Assembly (NCBI GenBank): GCA_018817425.1
Contig: JAHITX010000127.1
Coordinates: 1 to 64,000, forward strand
Length of the DNA stretch: 64,000 nucleotides
Direction of reading: 5' to 3'
Source: Pseudomonadota bacterium
GTDB taxonomy: Bacteria; Desulfobacterota; Desulfobacteria; Desulfobacterales; RPRI01
The position numbers and the translations under genes were made by a program. Under the pieces are notes generated by a model that made no database searches, had not been told where the DNA came from, and saw only the letters and a program-made list of their open reading frames with translations. Shown here in pieces: positions 22,151 through 28,310 of this stretch (position 1 is the stretch's first letter; each line of letters begins with the position of its first letter).

Positions 22151-22447
22151 TTATTCCATAATTTCTTCTACTGGCAATATCTGCTTGCCATGTCTAATTG
22201 TGAGAATAGATATTTGGTTCTTTTCAATACGATAAATGATGCGGTAATTTCCGTAAATTAGCTCTCTGAATTGATCGTTTGAAATTTCAGGCACAATCCT
22301 ACCTAGCGCAGGGGAAGATTTTAGCTGCGCAACTTTTGAAAATATTGTATCAACCCATTTTTCTGCTGCTGAAGGCTTGTCCTGAGCGATGTATGCTGCG
22401 ATTTCAGTGACCCTATCTATAGCCAGCGGTGACCAGATTATCTTCAT
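22151..22447 (-). CDS. RelE/ParE-family toxin
   Basis: This 98-residue protein has the ParE/RelE plasmid-stabilisation pattern: WSPLAIDRVTEIAAYIAQDKP at the N-terminus, LKSSPALGRIVPE in the middle and FRELIYGNYRIIYRIEKNQI, then ILTIRHGKQ near the end. Whether the target is gyrase (ParE) or ribosome-bound mRNA (RelE) is uncertain. Its start overlaps the antitoxin stop by 4 bases. Confidence 0.87.
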   Translation of the reverse strand: MKIIWSPLAIDRVTEIAAYIAQDKPSAAEKWVDTIFSKVAQLKSSPALGRIVPEISNDQFRELIYGNYRIIYRIEKNQISILTIRHGKQILPVEEIME

Positions 22448-22725
22448 TTTTGGATTCGCCTCAAGACATTTTCTTTTGCATCATCATGATTTATTCCGTG
22501 TCCGGTCTCAATTTGGTTTAAGGCTATTTGAACATCTGTAAGAAGGTCAAGTCTCTCCTGTATTGCCTCATACTCTTGGGCATCTATAAGTACGGCAACA
22601 CCTTTTCCGTGTTGGGTGATGATCAATGGTCTTTTTGTGTCGTGGACTTGCTTGATGAAATTCGCAATACCTGTTCTTACCTCAGATAACGGTTTGATAT
22701 CCTGGTCAATTTTTAGTCGTTGCAT
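22444..22725 (-). CDS. Phd/YefM-family antitoxin
   Basis: This 93-residue protein has the Phd/YefM N-terminal DNA-binding and dimerisation fold (IKPLSEVRTGIANFIKQV, then PLIITQHGKGVAVLIDAQEY). The C-terminal tail should wrap the toxin encoded immediately downstream. The 4-base overlap suggests coupled translation and autoregulation. Confidence 0.87.
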   Translation of the reverse strand: MQRLKIDQDIKPLSEVRTGIANFIKQVHDTKRPLIITQHGKGVAVLIDAQEYEAIQERLDLLTDVQIALNQIETGHGINHDDAKENVLRRIQK

Positions 22726-22982: not shown

Positions 22983-23000
22983 ACGTCTATGCTTTTATGC
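22983..23000. repeat. inverted repeat flanking the REP-associated transposase (left)
   Basis: ACGTCTATGCTTTTATGC at 22983-23000 is the exact reverse complement of 24047-24064. The pair brackets the transposase gene, as expected for REP sequences around a RAYT. Confidence 0.7.
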
Positions 23001-24011
23001 GTTCCCATTATTAGTTAGCTCAAATCGATTTTCTCTTGCGATTTTTTCACCCCTTCTCGAAGAACGACTAATCGCAGGCTGGCTCATGTTTAATATACCT
23101 GCAATTTCAACTGTGCTCATCCCAAGTTTTCGATGTGCCCAAAAGCACAGCAGGGACCTGGCTCGAACTGTTTGGGGGGATTTGTCGCATGCAGTGACCT
23201 CTTCAGGCTTTATCCCCAGAAGTTTAGCCACGCGCTCTTTTACAACATCAAAATCAATGCCCCTGGCTTTTAATTCATATTTCTGTTTAAAAGATTCTTC
23301 AGATGATTTGAGAACATTTTCAACAAAATCGCTATTGCCCAAAATACGCTCATCACCTTTAAGGCGAATTCCAGCTTTGCGAGATTCTTTGAGAGCGGTC
23401 CACCCGCCCGAACTCCTTAATAGTCCGCCTCCTGTCAAATCAGGGCGGTTCCCCAAAGAAATGCCCTTGCCAACAAAATCCCGGTACATCTTCCGGGCTT
23501 CTCTTTTTTTCTCAGAGAAAAAACCGTAAATATAATTGATATTCTGCCATGTTTCCTTCGGAGATCTCATTAATACATGATGACCGCACCATAGATATTT
23601 GTCCAGCTCACCAAGGCTTGAGACAAGTCCCGCCCTTAGAGGGTTCAAGTGAATATACCGCACCAGCTCTTTTAAATACACGTCTTCTTGACACAAGATA
23701 GATTTATAACGGTTTTGAAATAGCTGGCCATGCCGACGATACTTTTTATTAAACCAACCGGCATATCCGGTTAGCAATCGGCTCATGAATACTGAAATAG
23801 GAACCAACCCGGTTCTTAGTAACAGATGCACATGATTAGTCATTAAAGCCCATGCAAAACAATCCGTTCTTGTCTCAGGGATCAGCTCAGAAAGCCGGTT
23901 CAAAAAATTTGTCCGGTCAAAATCAGACCTGAAAATTTTTCGTCGTTCGATTCCCCGAATGATTACGTGATGCAATGCACCAGTACAGTCTATTCTTGCT
24001 TTCCTTGGCAT
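22995..24011 (-). CDS. REP-associated tyrosine transposase (Y1/HUH, RAYT-like) with C-terminal helix-turn-helix
   Basis: This 338-residue protein has an N-terminal Y1-transposase domain (about 1-200): RIDCTGALHHVIIRGIERR, the metal-binding HUH motif in MTNHVHLLL, and YIHLNPLRAGLV with downstream catalytic region. The C-terminal 130 residues contain a DnaA/Xre-like helix-turn-helix ending in MSTVEIAGILNMSQPAISR. RAYTs nick and move single-stranded REP palindromes. The 18-bp inverted repeats at 22983-23000 and 24047-24064 sit at the 3' end and just upstream of the gene. The gene seems intact. Confidence 0.88.
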   Translation of the reverse strand: MPRKARIDCTGALHHVIIRGIERRKIFRSDFDRTNFLNRLSELIPETRTDCFAWALMTNHVHLLLRTGLVPISVFMSRLLTGYAGWFNKKYRRHGQLFQNRYKSILCQEDVYLKELVRYIHLNPLRAGLVSSLGELDKYLWCGHHVLMRSPKETWQNINYIYGFFSEKKREARKMYRDFVGKGISLGNRPDLTGGGLLRSSGGWTALKESRKAGIRLKGDERILGNSDFVENVLKSSEESFKQKYELKARGIDFDVVKERVAKLLGIKPEEVTACDKSPQTVRARSLLCFWAHRKLGMSTVEIAGILNMSQPAISRSSRRGEKIARENRFELTNNGNA

Positions 24012-24064: not shown

Positions 24065-24524
24065 CCCCATTACTACCACCCGGGAACCCAAACCGGTAGT
24101 GTTCTATCCATGTTTTACTCAAACCGAGTCTATTTGAGAAAAAAGGCGCGGGTTCTCGATCGGGTGTGAAACGAAAGATTATAAGCAAATGATTTAGATC
24201 AAAGACTTCTATTTTCATATAAAAGTAAACGGTAAAGGTCAAATATAGACCTGACCCCTATTCTCAAATCATTTTATACAGTTATATCCAAATAGTGTGT
24301 GTCTGTAAAAATATCAGAGATTGTATGAAAAATTGCAGGAGACCTTGAAAAAAAGCAGTTTGATGGTGAAAAGTAATCCTGTTTTTATACTTCTTGACTA
24401 AAAGTTCTTGACTAAAAGCAAGTCCCTATTTATAACCAGCCAAAATTGTGCCTAATGAGCTGTTATTTTTACGAAGTGGACTTATTGGAAGTAAATGGAC
24501 TTAAATATAGAGGAGGTGGGGGCG

Positions 24525-25190
24525 ATGATTTCTAAAAGATTAGCTTTTGTTATTGTGTTTTTTACTTTGGTCTTCGTGTGTGCTGCATCCCAGGCGTTTT
24601 CGGCATCTTATTGGAGTTACGATGGTCAGGCGTATTCAAAGGTCATCTGGTCTGTTGATGGCACATCAACGCAAGATCAGCAATTCTACGGTCCATTGAC
24701 CGGCAGTGTAGATGCGGTAGTAAGCTTTGCTGACGGACATGCCCAGTCAGGCGATACTTCTGCTTCAGTGAACTCAATTGCAGTCGGTTTGATCGGATAT
24801 CACAGCACCATATCCAGCGGAACGGCCGCTGCCACAATCTATGGTCTTGCGGAAGGTGCGTACACGATCAGTTTCGACTATGTTACGACCCCAAACAAAG
24901 TAGAGGGGCTGCTGTTCAGCACAGCCTATGCCGGATATGAGATGTCAGGAAGTTCGAATGAACTGTCGGGCTCCGATCATTTTTCAACGATAGTCAATCC
25001 CGATGAGTGGGTATCATTTTTTACCCGCTGTCAGACCAACGCCCTGGATGGTTCGATCACTGCAAGCGCAAGCATATTCAATATCACAGTGGAGCCTTAT
25101 TCAGCTATCCCTACCCCCATTCCTGGCGCTGCCTGGCTTCTGGGGTCTGGTCTTATAGGACTGGCAGGTTTTAGCAGAAGAAAAAAATAG
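24525..25190 (+). CDS. secreted PEP-CTERM sorting-domain protein
   Basis: This protein of about 221 residues starts with a signal peptide (RLAFVIVFFTLVFVCAASQA). It has a central Ser/Gly/Thr-rich beta-type region with no recognised enzyme motif. It ends in a PEP-CTERM-type tripartite signal: a Pro-rich motif (IPTPIPGAAW), a hydrophobic helix (LLGSGLIGLAGF) and a basic tail (SRRKK). Exosortase systems remove such tails and anchor or release the protein in the envelope matrix; no exosortase is in this window. ATG 24525 follows AGGAGGTGG, so the longer frame from 24495 is not preferred. Confidence 0.88.
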   Translation: MISKRLAFVIVFFTLVFVCAASQAFSASYWSYDGQAYSKVIWSVDGTSTQDQQFYGPLTGSVDAVVSFADGHAQSGDTSASVNSIAVGLIGYHSTISSGTAAATIYGLAEGAYTISFDYVTTPNKVEGLLFSTAYAGYEMSGSSNELSGSDHFSTIVNPDEWVSFFTRCQTNALDGSITASASIFNITVEPYSAIPTPIPGAAWLLGSGLIGLAGFSRRKK

Positions 25191-25261: not shown

Positions 25262-25438
25262 TTTACGCTGTCCAGTAATGGCTATGTTCAGTTCGGAATC
25301 ATGGATACCGTTTTCCAAGATAATTCCGGCAGTCTGAAACTCACCGTAACTGGATCGTCAGTACCTCTCCCGTCAGCTTTCTGGCTCTTAGGTTCAGGCC
25401 TTCTGGGCATAATAAGGCTGAAACGCAAAATTTCATAA
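25262..25438 (+). pseudogene. C-terminal remnant of a second PEP-CTERM protein
   Basis: Reading the frame that ends with TAA at 25436-25438 gives a tail with the typical pre-sorting sequence FQDNSGSLKLTVTGS, then VPLPSAFWLLGSGLLG and a basic end (RLKRK). This is an unmistakable PEP-CTERM signal, but no signal peptide or ribosome binding site precedes it and the previous gene's terminator lies right upstream. It looks like the 3' end of a deleted paralogue. Confidence 0.7.
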
Positions 25439-25479
25439 AAATAGTCTTGATAGACATTTAAAAGAGGAAAAATATAAAA

Positions 25480-25575: not shown

Positions 25576-25862
25576 AAAATATGGGGGTCCGCTTTTGGCC
25601 CTTATTTACCATATCAATATCAATAAGTTCATCTTTACATTTTTGAAATTTATGGACTGGCGTCATTCAAAATGGAACTGAATTTATTATCAAACCCTTT
25701 GAATTTCGAAATTCAATATCATGATTTGCGTTAGAAATCTACTAGTTCCATGAAAATGTTAGATCTATTTCTTACAGGAAGCTATACGTACTAAAATCTG
25801 ATTTTCTTATTGAAGTTAATGGGTTAGATGTTGTTTAACAATCTCATGGTTTTATGTTTTAG

Positions 25863-26750
25863 TCAAGGATTATTTTGGGTGCCAACCGTTTGTTGCATGA
25901 TCACCTCCATAGCTTTGAAGTAGTCTCTCTGCACTTTCATGTTTGAGATCCAGCAGTACCGCTGAGTGGTTTTCACATGGCTATGCCCCAAGAGATCCTG
26001 AATGGTGCAGAGATCGGCATCGGCATTGAGCAGTTGGGTGGCCATAGTGTGCCGGAGATGGTGACAGGACACCTTGAGTTTTGCTTGGCGAGCATACAAT
26101 TCCATGCGCCGCTGTATGCCGCGGATGGAGATAGGCTGTCCCTGGCAGGGTTTCTTTTCCGATAGAAAGATCTTCCCGGTCCTGGAGGGAGGCCGTACCC
26201 TCAGATAGGCCGCCAGGGCCTGAAGGACATCATGGCTCATATAGACAACCCGATCTTTTCCACCCTTGCCATCCTCGACCAGTATGGTCTTGCGTTTGAC
26301 ATCTATGACGCCTATGGTTAGATTGGCTACCTCTTCCACTCGTAACCCGCATCGGAGCATAAGCATGAACATGGCCCGGTCACGTGCACCTTTTATGACC
26401 TTGAAGAGGCTGACCACCTGTTCGTCTCTCAGATATCGAGGTAGAGGTCTGGACATCTTCTGGAAGTGATTCTTCCTGATGGGGTTGGCAATGGTTACCC
26501 CTTCATCTTCCCGCAGGTAATGGTAGAACTGACGGATAGCATTCAAGTGGCAGTTTACCGTCTTTGGCACCAGCCTCTTCCTCATCATATGCTCAATGTA
26601 GCGTGATACTGTGGCGGATGTCACCTCCTCCACCGGCACATCCAGCCAGATGATAAAGTGTTTAATGAGATTCAGATAGTTCTTCACGGCATGGGGTGAA
26701 AAGTTCCTGCGCTTCATAAATCGCCGCCAATTCAGGATCACATCGATCAT
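25863..26750 (-). CDS. tyrosine recombinase, second gene of the pair
   Basis: This 295-residue XerC/D-like phage integrase-family recombinase has an N-terminal SAM-like core-binding domain (about 1-90) and a catalytic domain. Visible active-site residues are Arg in RCGLRVEEVANL, the HxxR box in HHLRHTMATQLL and the nucleophilic Tyr in GHSHVKTTQRY. ATG 26750 has a strong AAGGAGG site, so the gene truly overlaps the upstream recombinase by 89 bases in another frame. It is intact. Overlap and shared orientation imply that both proteins act together. Confidence 0.9.
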   Translation of the reverse strand: MIDVILNWRRFMKRRNFSPHAVKNYLNLIKHFIIWLDVPVEEVTSATVSRYIEHMMRKRLVPKTVNCHLNAIRQFYHYLREDEGVTIANPIRKNHFQKMSRPLPRYLRDEQVVSLFKVIKGARDRAMFMLMLRCGLRVEEVANLTIGVIDVKRKTILVEDGKGGKDRVVYMSHDVLQALAAYLRVRPPSRTGKIFLSEKKPCQGQPISIRGIQRRMELYARQAKLKVSCHHLRHTMATQLLNADADLCTIQDLLGHSHVKTTQRYCWISNMKVQRDYFKAMEVIMQQTVGTQNNP

Positions 26751-27795
26751 GACTATCCCTCCTTTCGATCTTCGACATGGCTCTAAAATATTCTTCCTCC
26801 CGGGTCTTATCGGTCAGTCGGGCATAACGCCTCGTCTGCTCAATGCTCCGGTGACCCAGCAAAACCTGGAGACACTCCAGACGCATGCCGGCGTTAAGAA
26901 ACTCCGTGGCAAAAGTGTGCCGAAGCGCATGCAGGGAATATCCTTTGTCTGCTAATCCCGCCTTGACCAGATAGCGCTGAAAGATCATCCGAGCGGTGCT
27001 GTAAGACATAGTGCCGGTCCGAGTGTAGATCAGGTACTCCTCGCCAGGATACCTTTGCTTTAACCATTTCCGCAGAGCCCTGACCGCATCATCACTGAGA
27101 TAGACCACCCTGCCCAACCGATTCTTCTCTCCTTCGTAAACCTCTATTTTCCGCTCCTTGAGATAGACGTCGGCCATCTTGGTATTGAGTAGTTCACCGA
27201 TCCGCATACCTGTTCTCAACAAGACCAGGATCATGGCTCGGTTACGGACATTTTGAATAACCAAAAGCAGCTGCCGCAGATCATCCGGGTCCATCGCCCG
27301 TGGCAGCCGCTCCGGTAACTGCAACCGTATCCTCCGGCCAAATATTTCTGCAGAGACTATTCCTTCCTCCAGCAAATAGCGGAGGAAGGCTTGCACATTT
27401 ACCAGCTTTGTCCTGATTGTCGTAATCATATTCCCCCGGTCCTGCTCGTGCTCGATAAACGCCTCCACATCCCTTCGGGTAATGGCTTCCAGAGATGTCA
27501 GGCCGCTATCCCTTAAGAGGGTAAGAAAAAGAACAATAGTTCCAAAGCGACTATACAGGGTCCTCGGTCTGCGGTTGCCAAGTGTCAGGTAACGAAGATA
27601 GGCTTCCACCTGATCCTTCCCCGGCAGGTCCATCCGGCCCAGCCGCTTCAAAATCTTGCCCAGCACTTCTAAACAGCCTTCAGGATGTTTGTTAAATCGT
27701 AATCGCATTTGATAATAACGGTGAGCCATAATGGCGGGAGTCTTAAAATCAGAAAATATTTCCGTCTGCTGAAGATCACTATATCCAATCGTCAT
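26662..27795 (-). CDS. tyrosine recombinase, first gene of the pair
   Basis: This 377-residue integrase-family recombinase has an N-terminal extension, a core-binding domain (about 65-165) and a catalytic domain with RTGMRIGEL, HALRHTFATEFL and the Tyr in GHRSIEQTRRYARL. Its start has AAGGAGG upstream. It is the promoter-proximal gene of the two-recombinase element and is longer than XerC/D (about 300), a feature shared with RitA-type recombinases. Confidence 0.9.
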   Translation of the reverse strand: MTIGYSDLQQTEIFSDFKTPAIMAHRYYQMRLRFNKHPEGCLEVLGKILKRLGRMDLPGKDQVEAYLRYLTLGNRRPRTLYSRFGTIVLFLTLLRDSGLTSLEAITRRDVEAFIEHEQDRGNMITTIRTKLVNVQAFLRYLLEEGIVSAEIFGRRIRLQLPERLPRAMDPDDLRQLLLVIQNVRNRAMILVLLRTGMRIGELLNTKMADVYLKERKIEVYEGEKNRLGRVVYLSDDAVRALRKWLKQRYPGEEYLIYTRTGTMSYSTARMIFQRYLVKAGLADKGYSLHALRHTFATEFLNAGMRLECLQVLLGHRSIEQTRRYARLTDKTREEEYFRAMSKIERRDSHDRCDPELAAIYEAQELFTPCREELSESH

Positions 27796-27891
27796 CTCTG
27801 CCTCCTTTTCTTATATCAAGAAAAAAATCAGATAGATGATGACTTATAATCCCTTATCTGTCAAACATCAGGTTGGTACGTATAGCAGGAA

Positions 27892-28310
27892 GCAAAAGTT
27901 TACAGCAGAAAGTGGATATATATCAAAAAAGACTGTTTACTCATTTATCTCCCGCAATATTTTATTCCAAGATGCTATCAAACATAAAATAATGTTGTTT
28001 CGAGGCAATAGCCGAGAAATTTTTAGACTCTGAAAGAAATAAAAATAAAAGATTTCTCGCTTCGCTTTGAAATGACACAAAAATGAATTGCTGCACAGTT
28101 TCTCGCTCGAAATGATAAAAGAGTCGATATTTCTATTATGACACAGTCTCTGTAGCAAGAAACCTTATATAGTAAGGGTTCAGAATCCTCATAAAGAAAA
28201 CTCATAAAGAAAACAGTTGATTAATTCCATAAAATCATGAGAAAATCCAGTTAATTTTATAAATCCGTTCAAATAATTTATGTATACTTAAAAACTTAAA
28301 GGATACCGCC
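27892..28310. other. intergenic region right of the recombinase element
   Basis: No gene is supported. Between about 28045 and 28125 the phrase TTTCTCGCTtcgcTTTGAAATGACA is followed by the degenerate repeat TTTCTCGCTCGAAATGATA, a pattern of dispersed intergenic repeats in related genomes (from memory). The promoter of the downstream acyl-CoA synthetase gene should lie in the AT-rich last 100 bases. Confidence 0.4.

Follow-up and report, generated by a model that had tools for sequence, protein, structure and literature searches.

The window (the 64,000-nucleotide stretch of contig JAHITX010000127.1 that was analyzed) carries at positions 25782-27885 an element of 2104 bp, with boundaries set by comparison with relatives. 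Between its inverted ends lie only two genes, both for tyrosine recombinases (A and B; Table 1), and no other open reading frame of at least 80 amino acids. An earlier, sequence-only reading of this DNA had proposed two overlapping tyrosine recombinases with all visible catalytic residues kept, an overlap of 89 bases and an internal ribosome-binding site, and these claims hold: both reading frames are present with a Phage_integrase domain in each, they overlap by 89 bp, the six XerD-type positions are intact in A and B, and AAAGGAGGG can be read inside gene A, approximately 6 nt before the ATG of gene B.

Table 1. Features of the element and its flanks (positions in the window).
Feature	Positions	Strand	Remarks
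Dispersed intergenic repeat, target side, outside the element	25587-25781	+	Ends in CAGGAAG; further copies in the same genome
Flanking 7-bp direct repeat CAGGAAG (spacer), B side	25775-25781		Same 7-mer at the opposite end
Terminal inverted repeat CTATACGTAC, B end	25782-25791	+	CTATACGTAAC-type ends in relatives
Inner repeat TCTGATTTTCTTATTGA, B end	25797-25813	+	15 bp from the element tip
Gene B, tyrosine recombinase, 295 aa	25863-26750	-	Phage_integrase (PF00589); catalytic RKHRHY intact
Gene A, tyrosine recombinase, 377 aa	26662-27795	-	PF00589; catalytic RKHRHY intact
Ribosome-binding site AAAGGAGGG of gene B, inside gene A	26757-26765	-	Read from the sequence
Inner repeat TCTGATTTTTTTCTTGA, A end	27816-27832	-	53 bp inward of the tip, immediately after the -10 box; may serve as operator
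Promoter TTGACA-17-CATCAT of the A-B operon	27836-27864	-	Directly inside the A end
Terminal inverted repeat, A end (GTACGTATAG on the + strand)	27876-27885	-	
Flanking 7-bp direct repeat CAGGAAG, A side	27886-27892		

By their fold and catalytic residues (R-K-H-R-H/W-Y), A and B are members of the tyrosine recombinase superfamily. The Pfam matches to PF00589 have E-values of 7e-38 and 3e-34 for the two recombinases, and an N-terminal SAM-like domain is present in both besides the Phage_integrase domain. The catalytic residues (R198, K224, H289, R292, H315, and Y324 in A; R137, K162, H230, R233, H256, and Y265 in B) are invariant in 42 A proteins and retained in at least 35 of 37 B proteins. 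Both proteins resemble XerC/XerD/XerA, with scores far under the curated cut-offs (198 and 138 bits vs. an XerC cut-off of 335). The predicted structure of A matches XerA/XerD, with the Tn1549 integrase also among the matches; its N-terminal 36 residues are modeled with low confidence and without secondary structure.

The terminal inverted repeats are present where the sequence-only reading had placed them, and the distance of 2,106 bp that it gave between the ends is here corrected to 2104 bp. The AGGAA copies that it reported outside each end likewise exist, as the middle of a true direct repeat of 7 bp, CAGGAAG. Because the outermost G/C is assigned to this target repeat, the terminal repeat in the window comes to 10 bp and each boundary shifts by one base. 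A lone 10-bp inverted repeat would be weak evidence for an element; the architecture recurs in 17 other elements.

Protein A was used to scan bacterial genome contigs, which gave 38 loci, and a search of related genomes added more. The A-B pair was found in approximately 40 further loci, mostly in MAGs labeled Desulfobacterota or Deltaproteobacteria, as well as in Nitrospirota; the relatives in sediment bacteria number in the dozens. Two genes are standard: in every locus with a readable second gene, it is B, which comes after A in unchanged order and with overlapping frames. The A and B trees are broadly congruent (judged by eye). A relative is present in 11 of the 395 sampled genomes of the phylum, at one to three diverged copies per genome, with flanks that are unrelated between loci; a near-identical second copy was not found within any genome. 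Nine congeners contain no intact copy, one of them (G008) carrying A-like fragments, and no allelic empty site was found in them; the DNA upstream of the neighboring gene differs, and the flanks are non-syntenic. No close relatives were found in viral contigs, and none on plasmids, where the best identity is 32-34%. On Rhodobacterales plasmids (L138 3453-5552 and L139 3453-5547), an Xer-like recombinase approximately 32-33% identical to B lies directly upstream of an IS91-family transposase.

Most of these loci carry the core CTATACGTAAC on the upstream side of A and, on the downstream side of B, its reverse complement. When end pairs were scored over 11 core and 7 flanking positions (maximum 18), 18 independent elements reached at least 17, compared with a maximum of 15 in the shuffled control; all 18 have a terminal repeat matching at no fewer than 10 of 11 positions and a flanking 7-mer matching at no fewer than 6 of 7. 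This search for other copies with the same ends had been proposed with the sequence-only reading; among the relatives, neither copies of the pair with different boundaries nor an absence of the inverted repeats was found. The relatives span 2034-2424 bp, and none contains cargo. The same ends thus recur at many unrelated sites with short direct repeats specific to each locus, as expected of a transposable element.

The interior of the ends is also conserved. The A end is ordered as core, TTGAC -35 box, 17 bp, CATTAT-type -10 box, inner repeat, ribosome-binding site, and ATG; TTGA(C) lies 19-21 bp from the tip in most relatives, and the inner repeat (TCTGnTTTTTCTATTGA) lies at approximately 53 bp, a position that is kept or nearly so in most A ends. 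At the B end, the inner repeat lies at position 15 in 25 of 26 cases and at 14 in the remaining one.

The flanking 7-mers vary between loci, with a few recurring in either orientation (CTTCCTG, CACCTAC, and CTTGCCA). They are identical on the two sides in 17 of the 20 elements for which both ends and flanks are readable; in L025 the mismatch is a single base, and in L048 and L061 it is larger, so spacer identity is not universal. On the A tree the 7-mers cluster modestly (11 changes vs. a shuffled mean of 14.4, with 5 of 500 shuffles as low), a degree of clustering compatible with an inherited spacer and with free target choice alike. Beyond the 7-mers, the outer flanks match the terminal core at 206 positions (shuffled flanks: mean 166.5, sd 10.6, maximum 199 in 2000 shuffles); this likeness, weak per base, is as would be expected for a target whose degenerate half-sites flank a 7-bp spacer.

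A pattern search of the 395 genomes of the phylum recovered a single exact joined site, GTTACGTATAG-GTAAATA-CTATACGTAAC, in the genome G273 (L254 5309-5337). It has the A-end leader on one side and the B end with 35 B codons on the other, such that truncated element sequence is present on both sides. This junction is probably a fossil, now degraded, of the joint expected of a circle or a head-to-tail tandem. As a sequence trace, it documents joining of the ends across one 7-bp spacer, in a manner compatible with circle and tandem alike.

The B side of the window copy adjoins the CAGGAAG edge of an intergenic repeat of approximately 195 bp, of which the same genome contains three more near-full-length copies (G000:C40:82151-82342, C111:34601-34788, and C93:14385-14574) and approximately ten partial ones; several of all these copies lack the element. 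Apart from the near-full-length copies, a core of approximately 70 bp (TATCATGATTTGCGTTAGAAATCTAC...CAGGAAG) stands alone in approximately ten places. Targeting of dispersed repeats was examined in two hosts, the second being that of L046, which sits in a different dispersed repeat that has 14 bases (CTTCCTGTAAGAAA) in common with the flank in the window and for which an unoccupied copy was found. Lone B-side ends follow a CAGGAAG-type site at three other places in the genome of the window and at one in G098, the location being another copy of the target repeat or a similar site; one has a mismatch and one a shortened spacer. We interpret these ends as probable remnants of earlier insertions. 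They were also considered as non-autonomous or cargo-bearing elements, which was rejected because no partner end lies within 16-20 kb. A longer element that includes the left repeat was likewise rejected, given that the repeat occurs without the element and the element without the repeat, and an integron attC reading of the adjacent repeat was dropped because the boxes are not conserved between copies (by eye).

We conclude that the locus probably contains a compact, cargo-free tyrosine-recombinase transposon with two recombinases, an 11-7-11 circle junction, and weakly matching target sites. The anatomy, the fixed ends with their flanking 7-mers, the co-conserved catalytic pair, the joined ends, and the recurrence at unrelated sites all point to this reading. 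The self-contained transposon proposed by the sequence-only reading likewise gains strong support from relatives with the same ends, 7-bp repeats that vary by locus, the patchy distribution, and the joined-end junction. The element is mobile-looking, and we infer its movement from comparison of sequences. We further infer a circle intermediate, spacer matching, joint action of the two recombinases, and self-repression. A and B would be expressed from one operon of overlapping genes and would act jointly on a core site in which a 7-bp spacer separates two 11-bp half-sites; the element ends would be joined into GTTACGTATAG-N7-CTATACGTAAC, the circle junction. This junction would then recombine with chromosomal sites that have degenerate half-sites around a matching 7-mer, and integration would leave one 7-mer on each side of the element, with insertion at least sometimes beside dispersed intergenic repeats. 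With the promoter located just inside the A end and the inner repeat coming after the -10 box, a recombinase that binds this repeat may repress its own operon. A more far-reaching proposal, which we offer as somewhat doubtful, is that these elements constitute a family of their own among minimal tyrosine-recombinase insertion sequences: two sister recombinases would cooperate on near-identical half-sites, the target would be matched through the 7-bp spacer, the edges of dispersed intergenic repeats would be used, and the inner repeat would serve as both accessory binding site and operator.

The best surviving alternative, although an unlikely one, is a copy-out element similar to Tn554 or to the strand-biased circularizing elements (SE); such an element would circularize one strand, retain the donor copy, and take the spacer along to the new site. 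Tn554-type elements and SE have two catalytic tyrosine recombinases and imperfect inverted ends around a short spacer, and for SE the circular joint has been shown (PMC10214605); the element shares the paired recombinases, inverted ends and short spacer. The differing 7-mers at L025, L048, and L061 would fit a carried-over spacer. Against this, a footprint carried along would in many cases not match the target, and the predominance of identical 7-mers (17 of 20) is a mild argument. Furthermore, Tn554 and SE encode an additional small protein (TnpC or Srap, and in SE also Tfp) and one unusually large recombinase, and they have a 6-bp footprint and cargo genes, in contrast to the 7-mer and absence of cargo here. 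No accessory small protein of the TnpC/Srap/GinD type is present in the element, and the spans of 2.03-2.42 kb among relatives leave scant room for one.

Far less probable, and already largely refuted, is a RIT element (recombinase in trio) that has degenerated through loss of the third gene. RIT elements are likewise operons of overlapping tyrosine recombinases between inverted ends, with no required cargo and with insertions in chromosomes or plasmids (PMC3414803; PMC10214605), and the sequence-only reading had suggested a RIT relative. This suggestion survives as a functional analogy only. RIT elements have three adjacent overlapping genes, ritA-ritB-ritC, over approximately 3.4 kb rather than two over approximately 2.1 kb, whereas the two-gene form is universal among relatives with a readable second gene, and every relative for which both ends can be read has only two recombinases between them. 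A quick tree, whose long deep branches are uncertain, gives A and B one clade each with 100% support, apart from RitA, RitB, and RitC of pHG1, E. coli XerC/XerD, and IS91-associated recombinases. Profile comparison similarly places A and B closest to each other (1e-53, vs. 2e-14 for A-RitA and 1e-9 for B-RitB, the Rit sides being single sequences). The RIT terminal repeat is approximately 34-35 bp (35 bp as recovered from pHG1, GGCACTATATGCCCTTCCTGACTATATCGGGTAAT), about three times longer than and unrelated in sequence to the 10-11-bp core here, which is accompanied by a separate inner repeat, and no common 7-bp flanking repeat was seen in the RIT material examined. We therefore claim no membership in RIT; by analogy, the mode of action may be similar, to RIT as to Tn554-type elements. 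The pHG1 RIT copy (L135 31900-36000) adjoins a palindrome (CCTATATCGTTCACGATATAGG) just outside its terminal repeat, perhaps a hairpin target.

A non-mobile, chromosomal Xer/dif-like housekeeping or phase-switch system is scarcely credible: A and B are Xer-like and the joined ends resemble a dif site, but the scores fall under the Xer equivalog cut-offs, the chromosomal position is not conserved in the genus (sister species compared), and the distribution is patchy, with unrelated flanks, few and diverged copies, and solo ends elsewhere. XerC/XerD-dif shares with the element a pair of related recombinases of the Xer type and the 11-spacer-11 layout of the site; dif, with its 6-bp spacer, has a fixed place on the chromosome, whereas here the two ends of a mobile element each hold part of the site.

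Other systems are similar in part. Tn916 and Tn1549 have core half-sites around a short variable spacer that flank the element, with coupling sequences of the 6-bp class; they use a single integrase with an arm-binding domain together with Xis and conjugation genes, unlike the two recombinases here. GInt islands (ginABCD) have tandem tyrosine recombinases, direct flanking repeats, and a circular form (PMC5385486); the first two features are shared, but GInt has three recombinase-like proteins in addition to GinD, variable cargo, and a fixed chromosomal site. BIM is also a two-gene module, with one tyrosine recombinase rather than two and a conserved second protein of unknown function (PMC3414803).

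The element belongs to the broader, already known class of tyrosine-recombinase transposons. A search of open-access literature yielded no account of a comparable element with two recombinases and no name for it, and it provisionally appears to be an undescribed compact type of recombinase-driven insertion sequence. The tyrosine-recombinase transposons compared all have conjugation genes, accessory proteins, or three proteins of the recombinase type. With two genes in 2.1 kb and well-defined ends, the present element makes a minimal system that is easy to reconstitute. It could be used to test how two sister recombinases share the work on almost identical half-sites, and whether the identity of a short spacer governs landing sites. 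The ends also permit automatic annotation of genes that are otherwise filed as generic integrases.

Several other features lie close to the element in the window. An IS200-like Y1 transposase with a weak DnaA_C-like C-terminal match is encoded at 22995-24011 (-); transposases of this type are linked to REP-like repeats, and this one could be related to the nearby dispersed repeats. A ParE toxin and Phd/YefM antitoxin pair is encoded at 22151-22725 (-). Beside the element, a protein with a PEP-CTERM-like tail (PIPGAAWLLGSGLIGLAGFSRRKK) is encoded at 24495-25190 (+), followed at approximately 25300-25440 by a fragment with a second, similar tail.
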